64,000 bases of DNA from Ruficoccus amylovorans (GTDB lineage Bacteria > Verrucomicrobiota > Verrucomicrobiia > Opitutales > Cerasicoccaceae), in NCBI RefSeq assembly GCF_014230085.1, contig NZ_JACHVB010000035.1:62001-126000 (forward strand), in the 5' to 3' direction. Below, one piece after another: positions 36,061 to 63,979 of this stretch. Within the stretch, counting starts at the first letter, position 1. Each line of letters begins with the position of its first letter. The notes beneath the pieces were generated by a model. It saw only the letters and a program-made list of their open reading frames with translations, made no database searches and was not told the origin of the DNA. A program made the position numbers and the translations under genes.

Positions 36061-37515
36061 TCAGTTGTTGAAAAAGGGCTCGAACTCCGTGCGGTTTTGC
36101 TCGCGGTAGAGGCTGAGCTTATTGCGCAGGGTGCGCACGCTGATCTGGAGCTTCTCAGCGGCGGTGGTGCGGTTGCCGCCGGTGTGCTCGAGGGCCCGGA
36201 GGATCAACCTCCGCTCCTGATCTTCGAGGGAACAGATTTCTTCGGGTTCGGGAGAGATTGGTGGAGAGACGGCGACTGCGACTGGCGCGGGCGCGGTGGT
36301 ATTGGGGGCGACGGAGGGGGGAGCTGTGCCACTCTTGGCCAGCAGTTGCAGCTCCAGGGGCAGGGCGTTCGGCGTGACCTGCGGGCCTTTGGTCGAAAGG
36401 ATGACGGCTCGCTCCACGATGTTCTGCAACTCACGCACATTGCCTGGCCAGGTGTGGGCCTGCATGAGGTGCAGGCTGTCCGGGTGGAACCGGGTGAGGT
36501 TGCGGCGGTGCTTACGGGTGTAGGTTTCCAGAAAATGCTGGGCAAGCAGAGGGATGTCACCCTCGCGCTCGCGGAGGGGTGGGCTCTCGATGGGGAAAAC
36601 GTTCAGGCGGTAGTAAAGGTCCTGGCGAAAGTCCCCGTCTACGACCGACTGCTGCAGGTCGCGGTTGGTCGTGGCGACGATGCGGGTGTCAATCTGGATG
36701 ACGTTGCTGGACCCGACGCGCTCAAACTCCCGTTCCTGCAGGACGCGCAGCAGCTTGGCCTGGAGGGGAAGGGAAATCTCGCTGATCTCGTCGAGTAGCA
36801 AGGTGCCGCCGTGGGCCAGCTCGAAGCGCCCGATGCGGTTCTCGAAGGCGCCGGTGAAGGCGCCCTTGACGTGGCCGAAGAACTCGCTCTCGATCAACGA
36901 TTCGGAGACGGCGGCACAATTGACGCGGATAAAGGGTTTGTCCCGGCGCATGCTTTGGCGGTGGATTTCCTGGGCGACCAGTTCCTTGCCGGTGCCCGTC
37001 TTCCCGTGGACCAGCACCGTGGCATCGGTGCGTGCGACGCTGTCAATCATCTCCCGCATGTGGGCCATACGCGGCGAGTTGCCCAGAATGCGCGGCCCGC
37101 AACGGGCAGAGTCTCCAGCGAGCTGTTTGTTGACGGCTTGGAGGTGCTCGTAGCGATCGGCCTTGGAGAGGACGAGGTCGAGTTCGTCGATAGAGAAAGG
37201 CTTCTGCAGGTAGTCGAAGGCGCCCAGCTTCATACACTTGACGGCGCTCTCGATGCTGCCTTGGGCGGTGATCATGATGGTTACGGGCATCGTGCCACGC
37301 GCCGCGAGTTGCTCCAGCAAATCGGTCCCCAACCCGTCGGGCAGGTTCAGGTCCAGGAACATGACCTCGAAGTCGTGATCGTTCCCCAACTGCTCAAGCG
37401 CTTCCTGGATGGAGGCGACCGTCTTGACCTTCAGCCGCTTGCGTTGCAAGAACTGCTGGAGAGTCCGGCGGATGATCAATTCGTCGTCAACGACCAGGGC
37501 GCTTTCGAAACGCAT
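36061..37515 (-). CDS. Sigma-54-dependent response regulator (NtrC/FlgR type)
   Basis: A 484-residue activator with three domains. The receiver (1-120) has phospho-acceptor Asp55 in FLDLNLPD and the KPF switch lysine. The AAA+ domain (~140-380) has Walker A GKTGTGKE, the sigma-54 contact loop GAFTGA and Walker B GGTLLLDE. A Fis-type helix-turn-helix (~440-480, ALEHTGGNRTTAAEKLQISVRTLRNKL) follows. It should open sigma-54 promoters, probably those of flagellar genes. Its cognate kinase may be one of the two histidine kinases in the window. It lies just downstream of the asparagine synthetase-like gene on the same strand. Confidence 0.93.
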   Translation of the reverse strand: MRFESALVVDDELIIRRTLQQFLQRKRLKVKTVASIQEALEQLGNDHDFEVMFLDLNLPDGLGTDLLEQLAARGTMPVTIMITAQGSIESAVKCMKLGAFDYLQKPFSIDELDLVLSKADRYEHLQAVNKQLAGDSARCGPRILGNSPRMAHMREMIDSVARTDATVLVHGKTGTGKELVAQEIHRQSMRRDKPFIRVNCAAVSESLIESEFFGHVKGAFTGAFENRIGRFELAHGGTLLLDEISEISLPLQAKLLRVLQEREFERVGSSNVIQIDTRIVATTNRDLQQSVVDGDFRQDLYYRLNVFPIESPPLREREGDIPLLAQHFLETYTRKHRRNLTRFHPDSLHLMQAHTWPGNVRELQNIVERAVILSTKGPQVTPNALPLELQLLAKSGTAPPSVAPNTTAPAPVAVAVSPPISPEPEEICSLEDQERRLILRALEHTGGNRTTAAEKLQISVRTLRNKLSLYREQNRTEFEPFFNN

Positions 37516-37539: not shown

Positions 37540-39444
37540 TTAAACAGAGATTTTCCAATGGTCGGCCCATAACGCGAGATTTATGAGCGGCCAGGCTAGT
37601 ATGGCATTTGTATGTTCAGCTTCAAACAGTTTTTGTCGGGTTGTAACGGGGAGCATGTTACCAAGAAAATCGGAATCCGACAAGCACGCTTCCCACACGG
37701 GTCGTAACGGCCCCTGGAACCATTCGATAAACGGGACGGGAAAGCTCCGCTTGGGGCGCCGTACGATTTCCTCCGGCAACTCTGCGGCAAAGGCGTGCCG
37801 CAGCAGGCGCTTGGTTTCGACGGAGTCGGCCCCGGTCAGCTCGAAGCTGTTGAGGCGGCGTACAGCCGCAGGGTCGAGTCCGGGGCGCAGGGCGAGTTTG
37901 TAGTGGGCCGGCATTTCAAAGAGACGCTCGACCAGCCGGTGGTCGCAGAAAGGGACGCGCCCCTCGACGGAGGCGGCCATGGTGCTGCTGTCCAGCCGCA
38001 GGAGCAGGCCCTCCAGGTTGACACGCAGGTGCGCGTGCAGATAGGCTTCCAGCGTGCTGCATGCGCTCGTCTCAGCGAAGAGCCCATCGTAATAAGCTTC
38101 CACGCCCGCCTCCGCTTCAAGCGCGGCCTGGTCACCGCCCAGTAACTGCCGACGGGCGGCGGCATCTATCCAACTGTTGCATTGCCGGAAGTGTGCGCGG
38201 CGGCAGGAGAAATGGCTGCGTCCATAATGCCGCAGGAGTGCGCGCGGATCGATGCCACCCTGGCTCCCCGCGGAACGGTCGAAGTCGAAGGCACAGAACG
38301 TTGGTCCGGCGTAACCGCCGAAGACCTCGTCAGCTCCCTCGCCGGTCAGCGCCACCTTATAGCGCTGGCCAAAGGCCTGCGATAGCCGGTAGATGGGAAC
38401 CTCGTTCGGGGTCGAAAGAGGGAGGCCGTTGGCTGCGATGAGCGTTTCGCAGTCGTACAGGAAATCGGCTTCTTCGAGGGGGACCTCGGTCAGCTCCAGG
38501 TCAAAGTGGCGTGCCGCCTGGCGCTGGTAGGGCCACTCCCCGTAATCCTCCCGCCGGTAACCGGTGCTGTAAACAGGACGGCCCGGACGGCCATTGGCCG
38601 CCAGGGCAGTGGCCGCGAGGATACTGCTGTCGAGACCGCCGCTGAGGAAGCCGCCCACGGGTGCGTCGCTGAGCTGGTGCTCATGGGCGACCTGACGCAC
38701 CCGGTGGCCGATCTCGACAGCCGCCTCGTCGAATTCAACCGCCGGCTTCTCCTCTTCGGGGAGCACTGGCGGGGTCCACCACTTGTGTGGCAAGGGCGTC
38801 TCACCCGGCCGGGCGAGGAACAGGCTGCCGCCCGGTTCAAGCAGGCGCACGCCGCGCAGGAGGGTCTGCTCGCCGAGGTTCACACGCACGGTGGCCAGGT
38901 AATGCGCCAGCGCGGCTGGATCGATCCGGCGTTCCAGGCCGGGCATCTCCATCAGGGCGGCGACGGACGAGGCGAAGGCGAAACGCCCGCTCCCGACGGT
39001 GTAAAAAAGCGGCTTGATTCCGAGCCGGTCCCGGACGAGCCAGAGGCTCTCATTGCGGGGGTCGTAGAGGGCGAGGGCGAACATGCCCGCCCAGTGCTTC
39101 ATGCACTCGTGGCCCCAGACGCTGTAGCTTTTCACCACGGCCTCGGTGTCACACTGCGTGCGCAACGCCTGGCCATGCCGCTCAAGCTCCCGGCGCAGTT
39201 GCGGGTAGTTGTATAACTCGCCGTTATAGACGGCTACGACGCCGGTCTCCGGATCGATCCAGGGCTGCTGCCCGTGGGCGGGGTCGAGGATGGCCAGGCG
39301 CCGGTGCCCCAGTACGACTGATCTACTGTGCCAGATGCCCTCTCCGTCAGGGCCGCGCCCGGTCATGGCCGTAGTTGCCCGCCGGATGGCGCGGAGATCC
39401 TGGTCGCCGACGACGGAGGAAAATATGCCGGCGATCCCGCACAT
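37540..39444 (-). CDS. asnB: Asparagine synthetase (glutamine-hydrolysing), AsnB type
   Basis: A 634-residue enzyme. The class II glutaminase domain begins with the catalytic Cys2 (MCGIAG) and shows NGELYNY. The synthetase domain carries the pyrophosphate motif FLSGGLDSS (~255). It would make asparagine, or an amide on another substrate, from glutamine and ATP. The position is unusual: its start is 2 bp from the stop of cheD, and the sigma-54 activator follows, so it sits inside the motility block. In such places AsnB homologues sometimes amidate sugars or surface molecules, so an untested link to flagellin decoration is possible. Confidence 0.9.
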   Translation of the reverse strand: MCGIAGIFSSVVGDQDLRAIRRATTAMTGRGPDGEGIWHSRSVVLGHRRLAILDPAHGQQPWIDPETGVVAVYNGELYNYPQLRRELERHGQALRTQCDTEAVVKSYSVWGHECMKHWAGMFALALYDPRNESLWLVRDRLGIKPLFYTVGSGRFAFASSVAALMEMPGLERRIDPAALAHYLATVRVNLGEQTLLRGVRLLEPGGSLFLARPGETPLPHKWWTPPVLPEEEKPAVEFDEAAVEIGHRVRQVAHEHQLSDAPVGGFLSGGLDSSILAATALAANGRPGRPVYSTGYRREDYGEWPYQRQAARHFDLELTEVPLEEADFLYDCETLIAANGLPLSTPNEVPIYRLSQAFGQRYKVALTGEGADEVFGGYAGPTFCAFDFDRSAGSQGGIDPRALLRHYGRSHFSCRRAHFRQCNSWIDAAARRQLLGGDQAALEAEAGVEAYYDGLFAETSACSTLEAYLHAHLRVNLEGLLLRLDSSTMAASVEGRVPFCDHRLVERLFEMPAHYKLALRPGLDPAAVRRLNSFELTGADSVETKRLLRHAFAAELPEEIVRRPKRSFPVPFIEWFQGPLRPVWEACLSDSDFLGNMLPVTTRQKLFEAEHTNAILAWPLINLALWADHWKISV

Positions 39445-39446
39445 GA

Positions 39447-39956
39447 TCAGCGTAAGAGATGTTCCGTGGTTCCCTTGGGGCTTTTGATGGAGAGGGTCTG
39501 GCTGGACGTGGAGAAGCTCAGCGTCCGGTTGTGGGAGCCACCCACGTCGCGCAGTTTCAGGCGCAGGCCGTTGCGGGAGATGAAATCCTCGGCGGCCTGG
39601 ATATTGGCGGCCCCGATCTTAAAGAAGTCGCTCTGCTCGTTGGTCGAAGCTCCCCCGGCGATGGCAAACATCAGCCGTTTGGGACTCGCCCGGAAACTCA
39701 TGAGGTCTTTCATCAGCATTGGCAGGCCGGTGTCGGCGAACATGCAGGGGCTGTTGCGGGCCTTTTCCGTATAGGAGCTGGAGTCGGCCAGCATATAGTG
39801 GATCATCCCGACCACGCGCGCCTCGGGGTCATAACCGAGCAAGCCGATGCAGGAGCCGAGCGCGTAGGTTAACACAACGATGTCGGGGTGGTTGGAGACC
39901 GCTTTGTCCGAGATGCCGACGACGACCTTTGGGGTAATGCCCAGCAGATTATTCAT
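39447..39956 (-). CDS. cheD: Chemoreceptor glutamine deamidase CheD
   Basis: A 169-residue protein with the catalytic Cys36 in TYALGSCIGL and His53 in GMIHYML. The conserved FAIAGGAS strand and GAANI segment follow, as in CheD. It converts receptor glutamines to glutamates and, in many bacteria, is regulated by binding CheC or CheX. The CheX encoded at 55863 may be its partner. It lies 16 bp downstream of flaF and is followed by asnB after 2 bp. Confidence 0.93.
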   Translation of the reverse strand: MNNLLGITPKVVVGISDKAVSNHPDIVVLTYALGSCIGLLGYDPEARVVGMIHYMLADSSSYTEKARNSPCMFADTGLPMLMKDLMSFRASPKRLMFAIAGGASTNEQSDFFKIGAANIQAAEDFISRNGLRLKLRDVGGSHNRTLSFSTSSQTLSIKSPKGTTEHLLR

Positions 39957-39972: not shown

Positions 39973-40398
39973 TCAGACAGCCTGGCCGGCCTCGACAGAT
40001 TCAGGCGCGGAGGAGGTGGAGGCGGGCCCCTGGGCGACGCCAGCGGCGAGGTTTTCGTTGATGTTCAGCAGTGTTTCCAGCGTTGCGCGTTCGGGGTTGG
40101 CCATCTGGCCGAAGGACTTCGCCCGGATGAAGGCACCCAGGCTGAGCAGGTTTTGCCGCAGTTCCAGCGGGAGCTGGCACTCCGGCGCCGACCAATCAGC
40201 GATGAAGACATCCCAGATCTTGAGGTTGAAGCGTAGCGCTTCGCCGAGTCTCTGGCTCCAGGTGACCGGACCCTCTGTGCCCAGGCAGGCGCGGATTTTG
40301 CCCGAGGCGGCGCGCAGGACCGTGACTTCGACCTGTCGGCCTGAAGGCGCGCTGGCCATTTGGGATTGTCCGTAAAGTCTCGCTAGTTCATTTCGCAT
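39973..40398 (-). CDS. flaF: FlaF-like flagellin biosynthesis regulator
   Basis: A 141-residue protein whose central region matches FlaF. It has GEALRFNLKIWDVFIADWSAPECQLPLELRQNLLSLGAFI (~51-90) followed by LETLLNINENLAAGVAQG. In Caulobacter and other Alphaproteobacteria FlaF promotes flagellin production and secretion and opposes FlbT. The frame overlaps the end of flbT by 11 bp, giving the order flagellin-flbT-flaF. The N-terminal 25 residues and the C-terminal tail are less conserved. Recognition rests on the strong motif and on its flbT neighbour. Confidence 0.85.
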   Translation of the reverse strand: MRNELARLYGQSQMASAPSGRQVEVTVLRAASGKIRACLGTEGPVTWSQRLGEALRFNLKIWDVFIADWSAPECQLPLELRQNLLSLGAFIRAKSFGQMANPERATLETLLNINENLAAGVAQGPASTSSAPESVEAGQAV

Positions 40399-40777
40399 GG
40401 TTCAACAGCTCGCGTTCATAGGCTAAGAGTTTCTGGGTTGCCCGCAGGGCGTGATAAAATTCGCGCTTGTTGAGGCGGAGCAGAATCTCGTCAAAATAGC
40501 TATCTGTACTCGGCGCGGCCTGTATAATGGCCTTGATGAGTTCCGCCGCCATGGCGTAGGTCCGCTCGTCTTCCGGGCTGTCGAGGTAGAGGGTCTGGAT
40601 CAGCAGGTAGAGCCGCGCGCAGGGGGTGCGCGCGTCGCTTTCGACCAGCAGGTCCTTTTCCCGCAGGAGGGGGACCTGGTTGATCATTTCTATTTCGCAG
40701 GTGCCACCGACGTTGCGCATGAGGGCTCCGTTAATGTAAACCCGTTCTCCGGGCGCGAGTTTGAGTTTGAGGGGCAT
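40388..40777 (-). CDS. flbT: FlbT-like post-transcriptional regulator of flagellin
   Basis: A 129-residue protein that reads as FlbT throughout. LKLKLAPGERVYINGALMRN (~3-22) is the family start, and NQVPLLREKDLL (~33-44) and ARLYLLIQTLYLDSP (~54-68) the next blocks. The final helix pair follows. In Caulobacter FlbT binds the 5' leader of flagellin mRNA and lowers its stability until the hook is complete. Here it starts 3 bp after the flagellin stop, so it is co-transcribed with its likely target. FlbT/FlaF are best known from Alphaproteobacteria, which makes this occurrence notable. Confidence 0.88.
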   Translation of the reverse strand: MPLKLKLAPGERVYINGALMRNVGGTCEIEMINQVPLLREKDLLVESDARTPCARLYLLIQTLYLDSPEDERTYAMAAELIKAIIQAAPSTDSYFDEILLRLNKREFYHALRATQKLLAYERELLNHAK

Positions 40778-40780
40778 GGC

Positions 40781-41653
40781 TTAATCGCTGAGCAGGCGGA
40801 GTGTCAGGTTGCGGGTTTCCTCCATTCCGTTGAGCCCTTCTACGGCCAAAGAGGTGCGCAGGTTGAGGGATTGGACCAACATTGCTTCCGCGTTAAGGTC
40901 AACTTCCTGTAAACGGGCGAGTCCTTGCTCGCTGTAGGCGAGGCTGGCGGTGTTCTGAACCGCGGCCCGCTCAATGCTGCCGACGTAATTAGCGACCCCC
41001 TCCCGGCGGGCCTGTAGTTGTTCCTGGGCCGCAGTCAGGTTTTCGATCATGGCGTCAATTTCCCCGTCCGTGGCCCCGGTGACATCAGCGACCAGCGGCG
41101 ATCCGGCGGGGTCGCTGGGTAGGGGATCTCCCGGCAGGGGGATGTCGAGCCCTTCCGCGCCGGGACCGATTGGGAGCGGCTCCAACTCCAGCGTGTAGCT
41201 CCCCACTCCGGTGGAAAAGCGTAGGGAACCTTCGCCCTGGGCGGGTGCGAGCAACTGGCGCGCGCCCTCGTCGGGCACCTTAAGGTTGCCTTCCAACTGC
41301 TGGCGCAGCTCGGCAAAGGCCGCGAGGGCGTCTGCCCGGGCGGGCGAACCTTCCGGCTCCGCCCGGGCCGTGTCGAGGAGGGTGCGCATGCGCCCGAGCG
41401 TGTCGGCTTGCAGGTCGATCGTGGTCTGGGCGAGGCGGACCGTGGTGGCTGCGCGGCTGAGGGATTCGTCCGCGGTGTTGAGGGAATCAATGCGCTCCTG
41501 CAAATGCTGAAGCCGCATCCAGCGGACCGGAGAAGTGGTTGGCGTGTCGATGCGCTGGCCTTCGCTCAATGTCGCCAGGCTTCGTTGAAGTTTTCGGTCA
41601 ACCGTCTGGAGCCGGGACAGGGAGGCGAGGGTAGATGCAACGGGTATCTGCAT
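40781..41653 (-). CDS. fliC: Short flagellin (possibly FlgL-like)
   Basis: A 290-residue protein built like a small flagellin. An N-terminal helical domain (MQIPVASTLASLSRLQTVDRKLQRSLATLSEGQRID, ~1-35) aligns with the flagellin D0/D1 start. A short variable middle (~130-200) is Pro/Gly/Asp-rich, and a C-terminal helix domain ends NAEAMLVQSLNLRTSLAVEGLNGMEETRNLTLRLL. The length resembles the ~270-aa Caulobacter flagellins. The usual DDAAG segment is replaced by PTTSPVRW. A hook-filament junction protein (FlgL) is possible, but the coupling to flbT-flaF favours flagellin. The AT-rich region 41654-41778 presumably holds its promoter. Confidence 0.78.
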   Translation of the reverse strand: MQIPVASTLASLSRLQTVDRKLQRSLATLSEGQRIDTPTTSPVRWMRLQHLQERIDSLNTADESLSRAATTVRLAQTTIDLQADTLGRMRTLLDTARAEPEGSPARADALAAFAELRQQLEGNLKVPDEGARQLLAPAQGEGSLRFSTGVGSYTLELEPLPIGPGAEGLDIPLPGDPLPSDPAGSPLVADVTGATDGEIDAMIENLTAAQEQLQARREGVANYVGSIERAAVQNTASLAYSEQGLARLQEVDLNAEAMLVQSLNLRTSLAVEGLNGMEETRNLTLRLLSD

Positions 41654-41778
41654 GCCCGGAGGCTAAGCATCTCCCGGGCCTATCTTTTTTTTAAATAATT
41701 AAGTCGTTTTTGTATAATTAGTTATAATACTTTGTTCGCGGAGGGTTGACCGGTTGGTGAGGAAAAAAATTCCCGTGC

Positions 41779-61398: not shown

Positions 61399-62973
61399 AT
61401 GACCAAACAAAATGAAATTCTGAATTTATGGCGAGAGCTGGAGCAGGGGCAGAAGCTGACCCTTATTCTGGCCCTGGTGGTCGTCCTGACGGGAGCCGGA
61501 TTATTACTGTGGTGGTCTCAGCGCCCTCAGATGCGCCTGTTGTATAATTCGCTTTCGGAGAAAGACGCCGCCGGCATTGTCGAGTACCTGGAAGGGCGTG
61601 GGACGCCCTATGAGATCCGCTCGGGGGGCCACGCTATCTATGTTCCGGCGGATCAGGTTTACCCGGCGCGGATGGGCATCGCGTCGGAGGGACTGGTCAG
61701 CGGTGGTCAGGTTGGGTTCGAGCTTTTCGATAATTCTTCGTTCGGAGCCAGCGACTTTATCCAGCGCACGAACTATGTACGTGCGATTCAGGGCGAGCTG
61801 GCGCGGACGATCATGCAGCTCAGCGGCGTCCGCCAGGCCCGGGTCATGGTCGTCATGCCCGACAACCGCATGCTTCTGCGCAATAAGGATGTCCAGACGA
61901 CGGCTTCGGTCTTTGTCGAGGTGGGGGGGCAGTCGCTCAGTCCGTCGGCTATTCAGGCCATCCAGGCTCTGGTCGCCAGTTCGGTGGAGGGTCTCTCCCG
62001 CGAAAACGTGGCCGTCGTGGACAACCACGGTCAGATGCTTTCCCGACGCGAGGACGAGAGCGGGCCGCTCACGGCCTCGGCGCGGGCGGTGGAGTACCGC
62101 CGGATGCTGGAGGATTATTTTTCCAAGAAGGTCGAATCCATGCTGGAAGCGGTTCTCGGAGAAGACCGGGTGGTCGTGCGGGTCTCCGCCGACGTGGACG
62201 CCGAGGCTGTCTCGCGGCAGGAAGAAAGCTTTGATCCCGATGGGACGGTCGTGCGCTCACAAACCACGGAGGAGGCGACGGACGAGAGCGTTGATCCGGC
62301 CAAGAGCGTGCAGGCGGTGTCGATGGAGGCCGGGCAGGCAAGCACGACAGCGCCGGGCGTCTCCGGCAGTTCGCGCCAGGAGACAATTACGAAGCAGCAG
62401 CAGTACGAGGTCGGCCGCACCGTGACCAGTATCACCCGCCCGGCGGGCTCGATACGGCGCCTCACGGTGTCCGTTCTGGTTGAGCCCCGGATGGAAGCGG
62501 GTGCGGATGGTGTCGCCGCCCCCCGCGCGCGCACCCCAGAGGAGATTGACCGCCTGCGTCAGGTCGTGGCGGACGCCCTCGGCATCAAGCTGGACAGTCC
62601 GGAAGCGGGATCGGTCACCGTGCAGGAGGTTTCGTTCGTCTCGGAGGAGCCCCCGCCGGAGCCCGGCTGGCTGGATTACTTCAGCTTATCCGGCCTGCTC
62701 TCTTTCGGTCGCGAACTCAGTGGTACCATCCTGGCCATCGTCCTGTTTCTGGTTTTTCTGCGGCTGCTCAAGCGCATGCGCCATGAGCCCAACCCTTGGG
62801 CTGAGTTTCAGCGCTCCCAGGACGCCCCGAATATCCCGGAGGGTTACCAGAACCAGACGGTTACGCCCGAACTGCTCAACGAAATGATTAAGCAGAAACC
62901 CGCCAACGCCAGCGCCATGCTGCGTAACTGGCTCGAAAATCAAAGCAAGACCCCCAACGGCAATGGATCGTGA
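61399..62973 (+). CDS. fliF: Flagellar MS-ring protein FliF
   Basis: A 524-residue membrane protein. The first membrane helix (LILALVVVLTGAGLLLWW, ~19-36) is followed by the ring-building domains with LLYNSLSEKDAAGIVEYLEGRGTPYEI (~45) and the EGLVSGGQVGFELFDNSSFGASDFIQRTNYVRAIQGELARTI segment (~95). The second helix is near residues 440-457 (SGTILAIVLFLVFLRLL), and the C-terminal tail should bind FliG. It overlaps the start of fliG by 11 bp. It forms the base on which the export gate and switch assemble. Confidence 0.95.
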   Translation: MTKQNEILNLWRELEQGQKLTLILALVVVLTGAGLLLWWSQRPQMRLLYNSLSEKDAAGIVEYLEGRGTPYEIRSGGHAIYVPADQVYPARMGIASEGLVSGGQVGFELFDNSSFGASDFIQRTNYVRAIQGELARTIMQLSGVRQARVMVVMPDNRMLLRNKDVQTTASVFVEVGGQSLSPSAIQAIQALVASSVEGLSRENVAVVDNHGQMLSRREDESGPLTASARAVEYRRMLEDYFSKKVESMLEAVLGEDRVVVRVSADVDAEAVSRQEESFDPDGTVVRSQTTEEATDESVDPAKSVQAVSMEAGQASTTAPGVSGSSRQETITKQQQYEVGRTVTSITRPAGSIRRLTVSVLVEPRMEAGADGVAAPRARTPEEIDRLRQVVADALGIKLDSPEAGSVTVQEVSFVSEEPPPEPGWLDYFSLSGLLSFGRELSGTILAIVLFLVFLRLLKRMRHEPNPWAEFQRSQDAPNIPEGYQNQTVTPELLNEMIKQKPANASAMLRNWLENQSKTPNGNGS

Positions 62974-63979
62974 CAGTTACGACTCAATCCCGAAGATCAA
63001 GCGGCTGGCCATCTTTTTACTGATGATCGAGCCGGAGACGGCGGCGATGCTCCTACGGGATTTCGACGAGCAGGAACTCGAAGCGATCAGTCGTGAAATG
63101 GTGGCGCTGGACCTGGTCCACGAGGATCTTCAACAGGCCGTTTCGGATGAGTTCGCCTCACTGCTGGTGGAGGGCATCACTTCTGTGCGTGGTGGCTACG
63201 AGGCCGCCTTGCGCACGCTGGAGCAGGCCAAAGGTCCGTACCTGGCCCGTAACCTGGTCGGCAAGATGGAGCCCGCCCGCGACTCCCAGGACATTATCCA
63301 GGAGATCACAGAGATGGAGGCCCGCCAGATCGCGAACCTGATCAAGGCCGAGCAGCCGCAGACGATCGCTTTCCTGCTCGGGGCGATGGATGTCCATAAG
63401 GCCGCCGAGATTCTGCAACTGCTGAGTGTGTCGGTCCGGGGGGAGGTCGTTCGCCGGATGGGTTCCCTGGAACCCACGCCCGAGGCCATCCTCAACAAGG
63501 TCGTCAAGAACCTCTCACGCCACCTCGACTCCCGCGGACAGCAGCCGATCACGCATTTCGGCGGGGCCGCGCGCGTGGCCAAGGTGCTGAACCTGGTGGA
63601 CAAGACCACCAGCAAGAACGTACTGGCGGAACTGGAGGAAAGCGATCCCAAGCTCGGCGCCCTCGTCCGTCAGAAGATGTTCTCCTTTAACGACCTGGTT
63701 AACGTCAACGTTGTGGACATGCAGCGCATCCTGCGCGAGATCGATTCGCAGACGTTGGTACTCGCCATGAAACCGGCTTCGGCGACGCTGAAGGAAAAGA
63801 TTTTCTCCGCCCTCTCGAAACGTGCCGGCGACTCGCTGCGCGAGGAGCTGGATTTCCTCGGAGCAGTTCGCCTGAAGGAAGTCGAGGCCGCGCAGGATGT
63901 GGTTATCCAGGCCGTACGCCGGCTGGAGGAAGAGGGAGAGATCAACCTCGGAGTTGGGGAGGCCACTACCTATGTCTAG
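62963..63979 (+). CDS. fliG: Flagellar motor switch protein FliG
   Basis: A 338-residue rotor protein. The N-terminal part binds FliF, and the middle carries AEQPQTIAFLLGAM (~128). The C-terminal domain contains the torque helix region (FNDLVNVNVVDMQRILREIDSQTLVLAMKPA, ~244-272) and LDFLGAVRLKEVEAAQDVVIQAVRRLEEEGEI. FliG interacts with FliM and the stators. The start overlaps fliF, and the end overlaps the next gene's ATG by 8 bp. Confidence 0.96.
   Translation: MDRDSYDSIPKIKRLAIFLLMIEPETAAMLLRDFDEQELEAISREMVALDLVHEDLQQAVSDEFASLLVEGITSVRGGYEAALRTLEQAKGPYLARNLVGKMEPARDSQDIIQEITEMEARQIANLIKAEQPQTIAFLLGAMDVHKAAEILQLLSVSVRGEVVRRMGSLEPTPEAILNKVVKNLSRHLDSRGQQPITHFGGAARVAKVLNLVDKTTSKNVLAELEESDPKLGALVRQKMFSFNDLVNVNVVDMQRILREIDSQTLVLAMKPASATLKEKIFSALSKRAGDSLREELDFLGAVRLKEVEAAQDVVIQAVRRLEEEGEINLGVGEATTYV

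Follow-up and report, generated by a model that had tools for sequence, protein, structure and literature searches.

The window analysed here is a stretch of 64,000 nucleotides of the Ruficoccus amylovorans genome (G000:C35:62001-126000; G000 is called the window genome below). On its reverse strand, a gene for a divergent flagellin-like protein, here named X, is followed after a gap of 3 bp (40778-40780) by flbT, which overlaps flaF by 11 bp (Table 1). Coordinates and Pfam matches thus confirmed the gene order, the gap and the overlap reported in a preliminary description of this DNA. The distance from flaF to cheD is 16 bp, and the two are perhaps in one transcription unit. Scanning beside the operon with promoter consensus patterns of sigma-54 and sigma-28 returned no site. 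Genes for CheR, CheB, CheX, CheA, FliF and FliG come next within the window (Pfam), and the flagellar cluster extends about 30 kb beyond it to include flgK, a flgL-like gene and two flagellin genes. FlhA and FlgK scored above their NCBIfam cut-offs, a FliA/WhiG-type sigma factor (182.7 bits, subfamily cut-off 189.6) and the FlgL-like protein slightly below theirs, and the remaining downstream genes were named by eye. The presence of such a sigma factor gene in the cluster is unlike Caulobacter, which is reported in the part of one paper available to us to be without FliA (PMC3930126). Between cheD and the gene for an NtrC/AtoC-type sigma-54 regulator (36061-37515), within the flagellar and chemotaxis region, lies an asparagine-synthase gene (37540-39444; TIGR01536, 361.8 bits, above cut-off).

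Table 1. Positions of the flbT locus features (window coordinates) and of the flagellin genes of the window genome (L054 coordinates)
Feature	Position	Strand	Basis or remark
X gene, 290-aa divergent flagellin-like protein	40781-41653	-	Flagellin_N 30.8 bits (Pfam cut-off 26.6)
flbT	40388-40777	-	PF07378 109.6 bits (cut-off 27), profile 1-125
flaF	39973-40398	-	PF07309 72.1 bits (cut-off 23.6)
cheD	39447-39956	-	PF03975 82.4 bits
Leader of X	41654-41778	-	candidate FlbT target of the preliminary description
fliF and fliG, start of flagellar cluster	61399-63979	+	Pfam
First flagellin	L054:6925-8040
Second flagellin	L054:8222-9334	-	start L054:9334 (about G000:C35:155334)

Profile searches recovered the families to which FlbT and FlaF had been assigned; both proteins score above the curated Pfam cut-offs, FlbT over its full length, and FlbT is the single match in the window genome. 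Neither reaches the NCBIfam equivalog cut-offs (FlbT, 85.7 bits versus 125 for NF001995 and 67.5 versus 153 for NF009432; FlaF, 70.8 versus 91 for NF009435), and they are therefore divergent members. No relative of FlbT or FlaF was found in the PDB by sequence at E ≤ 0.1, and a Foldseek search with FlbT returned nothing at E ≤ 0.001. VIA-align matched the FlbT helices with a best Z of 7.9, with the N-terminal strands barely covered. A look at the sequence and the N-terminal beta strands had prompted the idea that FlbT is a relative of CsrA, to which profiles gave no support (hhalign, 16 columns, probability 6%).

The gene upstream of flbT had been described as a short flagellin and as the target of the adjacent regulator. 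The first part holds in that Flagellin_N is above its cut-off; at E ≤ 0.1, however, Pfam gave no C-terminal flagellin family, and on a flagellin profile X scored 41.6 bits versus 302 and 299 for the two flagellins of the genome. X therefore falls outside the filament flagellins, which have both N- and C-terminal domains and a strong flagellin match. The second part does not hold, since the neighbour of flbT is a divergent flagellin-like protein and the main flagellins are elsewhere: these two and the FlgL-like gene lie about 46 to 52 kb from the X gene. Together with X, these three account for the four Flagellin_N matches of the window genome. X was also considered as FlgL itself, to which it has weak N-terminal similarity, and this was rejected: X reaches 24.2 bits on TIGR02550 versus a cut-off of 127.2, and the gene beside flgK is a better candidate at 119.8 bits. 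The window X retains both terminal (D0-like) parts.

Analysis of other FlbT loci placed X in a family. The usual order in desulfobacteria is flagellin, ORF X (about 160 to 290 aa), flbT, flaF. A 32-row X profile built without the window protein, and without the L086 and L096 copies, gave the window gene 27.7 bits (E 9e-7), the next flagellins reaching E 0.013 or worse. With a 7-row desulfobacterial-type profile, likewise without the window protein, it scored 56.4 bits; the two flagellins of the genome reached 11.4 and 8.5 bits, and the best of 300 shuffles 4.2. A Geobacter-type profile (23 rows) gave the window gene 13.4 bits only. The window gene thus belongs to the X family, matching a profile built without it and adjoining flbT. 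Ten representatives of the family had no Pfam or NCBIfam family, their weak matches lying far under the cut-offs. In profile-profile comparison with flagellins, the match of the 7-row X spans 150 columns in the D1 part and has a probability of 92% (E 7.7e-7); that of the Geobacter-type X has 4%. A model of the Geobacter-type X of L063, from an alignment that included the window protein, had a pLDDT of 71.7 with the first 60 residues unreliable. Its residues from about 52 to 210 align with the D1 part of flagellin and FlgL at Z of about 9 to 10.6 (FljL, Z 10.6, 142 aligned, rmsd 4.4; Bacillus cereus flagellin, 10.2; FlgL, 10.1), scores to be read beside similar ones, up to 11.0, for unrelated helical bundles; Foldseek found no match to the model at E ≤ 0.001. 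These results point to X as a flagellin-D1-like family that appears to be previously undescribed.

X occurs, one copy each, in 28 of 40 FlbT genomes, namely 28 of 34 non-alphaproteobacterial and 0 of 6 alphaproteobacterial ones, and in 26 of the 28 positives X itself was part of the model. It stands immediately before flbT in 25 of the 28; in the exceptions a flagellin lies between (L086), X is about 10 kb away (L096) or X is on another contig (L122). The spacing is at most 15 nt in 26 of 31 loci and loose, at 38 to 222 nt, in the five desulfobacterial loci whose X is closest to that of the window. Outside the window X is usually truncated, with most of the terminal parts missing, and these forms are probably unable to polymerise. 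Among 14 Opitutales genomes tested, only the window genome has X; four other FlbT-type ones are without it. At the usual place of X between flagellin and flbT, the Opitutales loci L084 (1589-2029) and L087 (9501-9851) have a different small ORF, neither of which matched the X profile at E ≤ 10.

Of 387 genomes drawn from the phylum, 3 have FlbT and 46 have Flagellin_N; a relatives search detected FlbT in 5 of 54 genomes. FlaF was surveyed together with FlbT only. The module therefore does exist outside the Alphaproteobacteria, as the preliminary description had it, and is rare in the phylum. Nine kin at genus or family level (G001-G009) have no FlbT, and the four of these checked for Flagellin_N have none; unlike them, the window genome carries flagellar and chemotaxis genes in a large cluster. 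Scanning named genomes gave 336 stretches encoding FlbT relatives, and the best 80 of the 336, which were kept, came by title from desulfobacteria, Opitutales, Nitrospirota, Alphaproteobacteria and a few others. A tree of FlbT plus FlaF, with 64 rows and 260 columns, groups the window with G012 and seven Opitutia in a single clade (99/98) that is separate from the rows of Alphaproteobacteria; the place of the window row is less sure because of its very long branch (1.86). Transfer or a wider ancestral system had been offered as explanations. A recent transfer from Alphaproteobacteria is rejected on account of this separate clade; that FlbT is common in desulfobacteria and present in Nitrospirota and other Opitutales makes FlbT-FlaF a wider system. 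FlbT is also carried by L105 (titled Mesoflavibacter sp.) and L110 (titled Stygiobacter sp.); L105 falls among Rhodospirillales-type rows of the tree and may be misnamed, and L110 is outside the tree.

We compared the distribution of FlbT with that of the CsrA-FliW system. Among flagellin-positive verrucomicrobial genomes, 40 of the 43 that lack FlbT have FliW, versus 0 of the 5 that have FlbT (56/1,712,304, about 3e-5, calculated by hand with kinship ignored), the five belonging to three families and two of them coming from the relatives search and not the phylum draw. The two proteins occurred together in none of these 48 genomes, and three (G291, G329, G334) have neither. Over its family cut-off, FliW was absent from all 40 FlbT genomes, with one sub-threshold match. 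Of the 40 FliW-type genomes, 14 were tried for CsrA and all had it, versus 0 of 16 FlbT genomes; a CsrA sequence was obtained from five of six loci. No FliW and no CsrA was found in the window genome, which thus lies outside the CsrA-FliW type. FlbT and CsrA/FliW are therefore mutually absent in the genomes tested.

The flagellins divide along the same line. A profile of FlbT-locus flagellins, which included L084 and L087, gave 296 to 341 bits for the flagellins of FlbT-type Opitutales versus at most 59 for FliW-type verrucomicrobial ones. A flagellin tree of rows of 250 to 420 aa above score cut-offs, without L117, L127 and the 1174-aa L133, split 47 FlbT-type from 31 FliW-type rows at 100/100, and an AU test did not reject a tree with all verrucomicrobial flagellins together on one side (p 0.16). 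The flagellins of L117 and L127, from alphaproteobacterial FlbT loci, scored 125 and 96 bits and, in a repeat tree that included them (57 rows, fewer others, a quicker method), stood between the groups with weak support. Because of these intermediates, the link between flagellin and regulator holds for the sampled Verrucomicrobiota, with exceptions elsewhere. FlhA, matched in 28 of 30 genomes, gave a tree in which the window genome and other Opitutales lie inside the verrucomicrobial group (98/97); within Opitutales the two types are interleaved, FliW-type G011 pairing with FlbT-type G047 (95/93). FlhA thus follows the phylum, and within the phylum the flagellin type follows the regulator.

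A leader element precedes the flagellin genes of FlbT loci outside the phylum. In 37 leaders (desulfobacteria, one Nitrospirota, L083), a hairpin with an AGAA loop lies about 25 to 50 nt upstream of the start codon, and the ribosome site carries CC(N)AGAAAGGAG. These 37 of 39 leaders make up alignment A6, from which L096:16823 and L086:8966 were omitted as poor fits by eye; the counts below use all 39 for the desulfobacterial set. The seven-pair stem has 84.4% of cells paired versus at most 44.1% when slid, both sides have changed in all seven pairs, and covariation is 0.527 versus at most 0.10 when slid. Desulfobacterial flagellin leaders thus contain an element with covariation.

The hairpin test allowed loops of 4 to 7 and at most one G-U. 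It found an AGAA loop in 34 of 39 leaders of the desulfobacterial set (mean of 40 shuffles 2.7), 11 of 18 alphaproteobacterial (1.7), 6 of 12 Opitutales (0.6) and 1 of 34 CsrA-type leaders (1.4); for GGA loops the counts were, in the same order, 3 (5.0), 4 (3.2), 0 (1.6) and 25 (5.4). We take the GGA loops of CsrA-type leaders to be putative CsrA sites, in keeping with what is generally known of CsrA and with its presence in those of the genomes that were tested. CC(N)AGAA near the start codon was seen in 33/39, 14/18, 6/12 and 0/34 of the four groups. A ribosome-site A(N)GGA occurred in 29/39, 14/18, 0/12 and 28/34 and is no discriminator between leader groups. Among the six AGAA hairpins of Opitutales, those of L037 and L046 are clear, that of L041 is the second site, and those of L087, L043 and L038 are chance-like; AAGAA loops seen by eye in L042, L038 and the window genome were missed by the test. 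The leader of L084 was anchored at a wrong inner start codon, and its true leader is, by eye, also without the AGAA motif pair.

X leaders had an AGAA hairpin in 4 of 31 cases and CC(N)AGAA in none. In the window, the 69 nt next to the start of X have neither motif, and the fold of the leader is no more stable than those of shuffled sequences (z -1.15), so the leader of X, put forward earlier as the FlbT target, was rejected as such. Within the window genome, the first flagellin likewise has neither AGAA hairpin nor CC(N)AGAA in its leader. In the leader of the second, ACCAGAAAGGU folds into a small hairpin of its own, and a hairpin upstream contains AAGAAU; the latter was identified by folding only (z -1.77; 11 of 200 shuffles as stable) and was not counted as an AGAA hairpin by the loop test. 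A candidate FlbT site therefore lies before the second flagellin, outside the window. The CCAGAAAGG leader motif stands before only one of the two flagellins, and the flagellin without it may escape FlbT control. Beside these genes (L054:9426-13387) are two large proteins, TPR-like by eye, perhaps flagellin-modifying enzymes.

With model R1, the leader of the window genome scored 14.9 bits (E 0.57) and Opitutales leaders were weak; two CsrA-type leaders scored higher than the Opitutales FlbT ones (L016, 31.8 bits; L014, 24.6), and the sole match at E ≤ 0.001 in 55 genomes was the CsrA-type G362. The model is unspecific because CsrA-type leaders have a hairpin of similar shape with AAGGA in its loop. 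It is too blunt for genome-wide detection, and since the AGAA and GGA elements share an outline, the distinction between them rests on the loop letters. Rfam at gathering scores returned only a tRNA, and no leader element, from six loci.

The control of flagellins by FlbT, FlaF and FljJ in Caulobacter crescentus reportedly goes back to Anderson and Gober in 2000 and to Ardissone in 2020. The locus shares with that system its FlbT and FlaF families, the linkage of the regulator to a divergent flagellin, and a flagellin leader as candidate target. Unlike FljJ, X belongs to a family of its own, is often truncated and stands before flbT; the likeness seen is one of linkage and divergence. As in CsrA-FliW control, a hairpin and a ribosome-site element precede the flagellin gene; unlike it, the proteins are different, the loop is AGAA and not GGA, and no genome tested was found to have both systems. 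In the portions seen of a paper on the Caulobacter system, FlaF is a secretion chaperone, FlbT binds FljJ, and FljJ secretion ends repression (PMC7591256); an excerpt of another already suggests FlaF/FlbT as a system analogous to CsrA-FliW (PMC4894983). For FlbT, the sections consulted of a review list no target motif and call the mechanism unresolved (PMC4347634). Among the open-licence literature we found no paper on FlbT in Deltaproteobacteria, a co-mention of FlbT with Geobacter only in a reference list and, by title and abstract, nothing relevant to FlbT or FlaF in Verrucomicrobi.

Taken together, these observations suggest that the flagellar filament protein of the window genome is probably rationed by FlbT-FlaF instead of the CsrA-FliW of its relatives. 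We propose that FlbT represses translation of flagellin mRNA through the AGAA-loop hairpin and would also bind a second AGAA site, CC(N)AGAAAGG, overlapping the ribosome-binding site; the AGAA sites, and the element as a whole, are thus concrete candidates for the FlbT target. Under FlbT the flagellin leader would stay closed until export begins, and FlaF, if it acts as in Caulobacter, would be the flagellin secretion chaperone that opposes repression. X, derived from flagellin, may bind FlbT and signal the state of the export gate to it, much as the specialised flagellin FljJ does in Caulobacter. By this analogy the X family is a candidate partner of FlbT, a regulatory flagellin, and the FljJ-like role is the weakest step of the mechanism. 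In Opitutales the cassette would consist of the distinct flagellin type, the leader element, FlbT and FlaF, with X added in the window genome, and would replace CsrA-FliW together with its flagellin type and GGA-loop leaders, the rest of the flagellum being verrucomicrobial. We infer that its components moved together, and any direction given to the exchange is likewise inferred. That FlbT, FlaF and X form the regulatory section of a filament cassette replacing CsrA-FliW is, as a whole, the best explanation and one we consider reasonably likely.

A broader reading is more tentative, and we put it forward as something that may turn out either way, with some leaning against it. Bacteria would have two interchangeable filament cassettes for the same basal body, either flagellin, GGA-hairpin leader and CsrA-FliW or the other flagellin type, AGAA-hairpin leader and FlbT-FlaF, often with the flagellin mimic X; FlbT would read an AGAA double-site code as CsrA reads GGA, and each cassette would be exchanged as a unit, RNA code included. 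The pattern relative to CsrA-FliW suggests that a checkpoint and its filament can be replaced while motor and export gate stay.

Three alternatives were weighed against the cassette. X could be a minor subunit of the filament of the ordinary kind, or an adaptor between hook and filament, and merely happen to stand beside flbT, with FlbT and FlaF acting on flagellin alone. The window X, with both terminal parts, is like a polymerising subunit and has the weak FlgL similarity noted above, and in G047 (Opitutales) flbT is preceded by a gene that, by eye, resembles FlgL. However, X proteins elsewhere lack most of these parts, the window genome already has a FlgL-like gene beside flgK and two flagellins, and the spacing between X and flbT is tight in most loci; we consider this role unlikely. 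It is somewhat improbable, too, that the ancestor of the phylum had FlbT-FlaF as well as CsrA-FliW and that the two were differentially lost, with no exchange. The single verrucomicrobial FlbT+FlaF clade and the AU test, which leaves the verrucomicrobial flagellins as one group unrejected, are consistent with such a history, whereas the lack of any genome with both FlbT and FliW (three of the 48 having neither) and the way in which, within the phylum, flagellin type differs in step with the regulator speak against it. That FlbT has been kept here without translational control, for example as a chaperone, with the leader hairpins serving RNA stability, seems very doubtful. FlbT is described as an activator in Brucella and a repressor in Caulobacter in the review sections cited above (PMC4347634), which would allow for such a change of role, but the AGAA loop and the second AGAA go with FlbT genomes, and in CsrA-type genomes GGA loops stand in their place.
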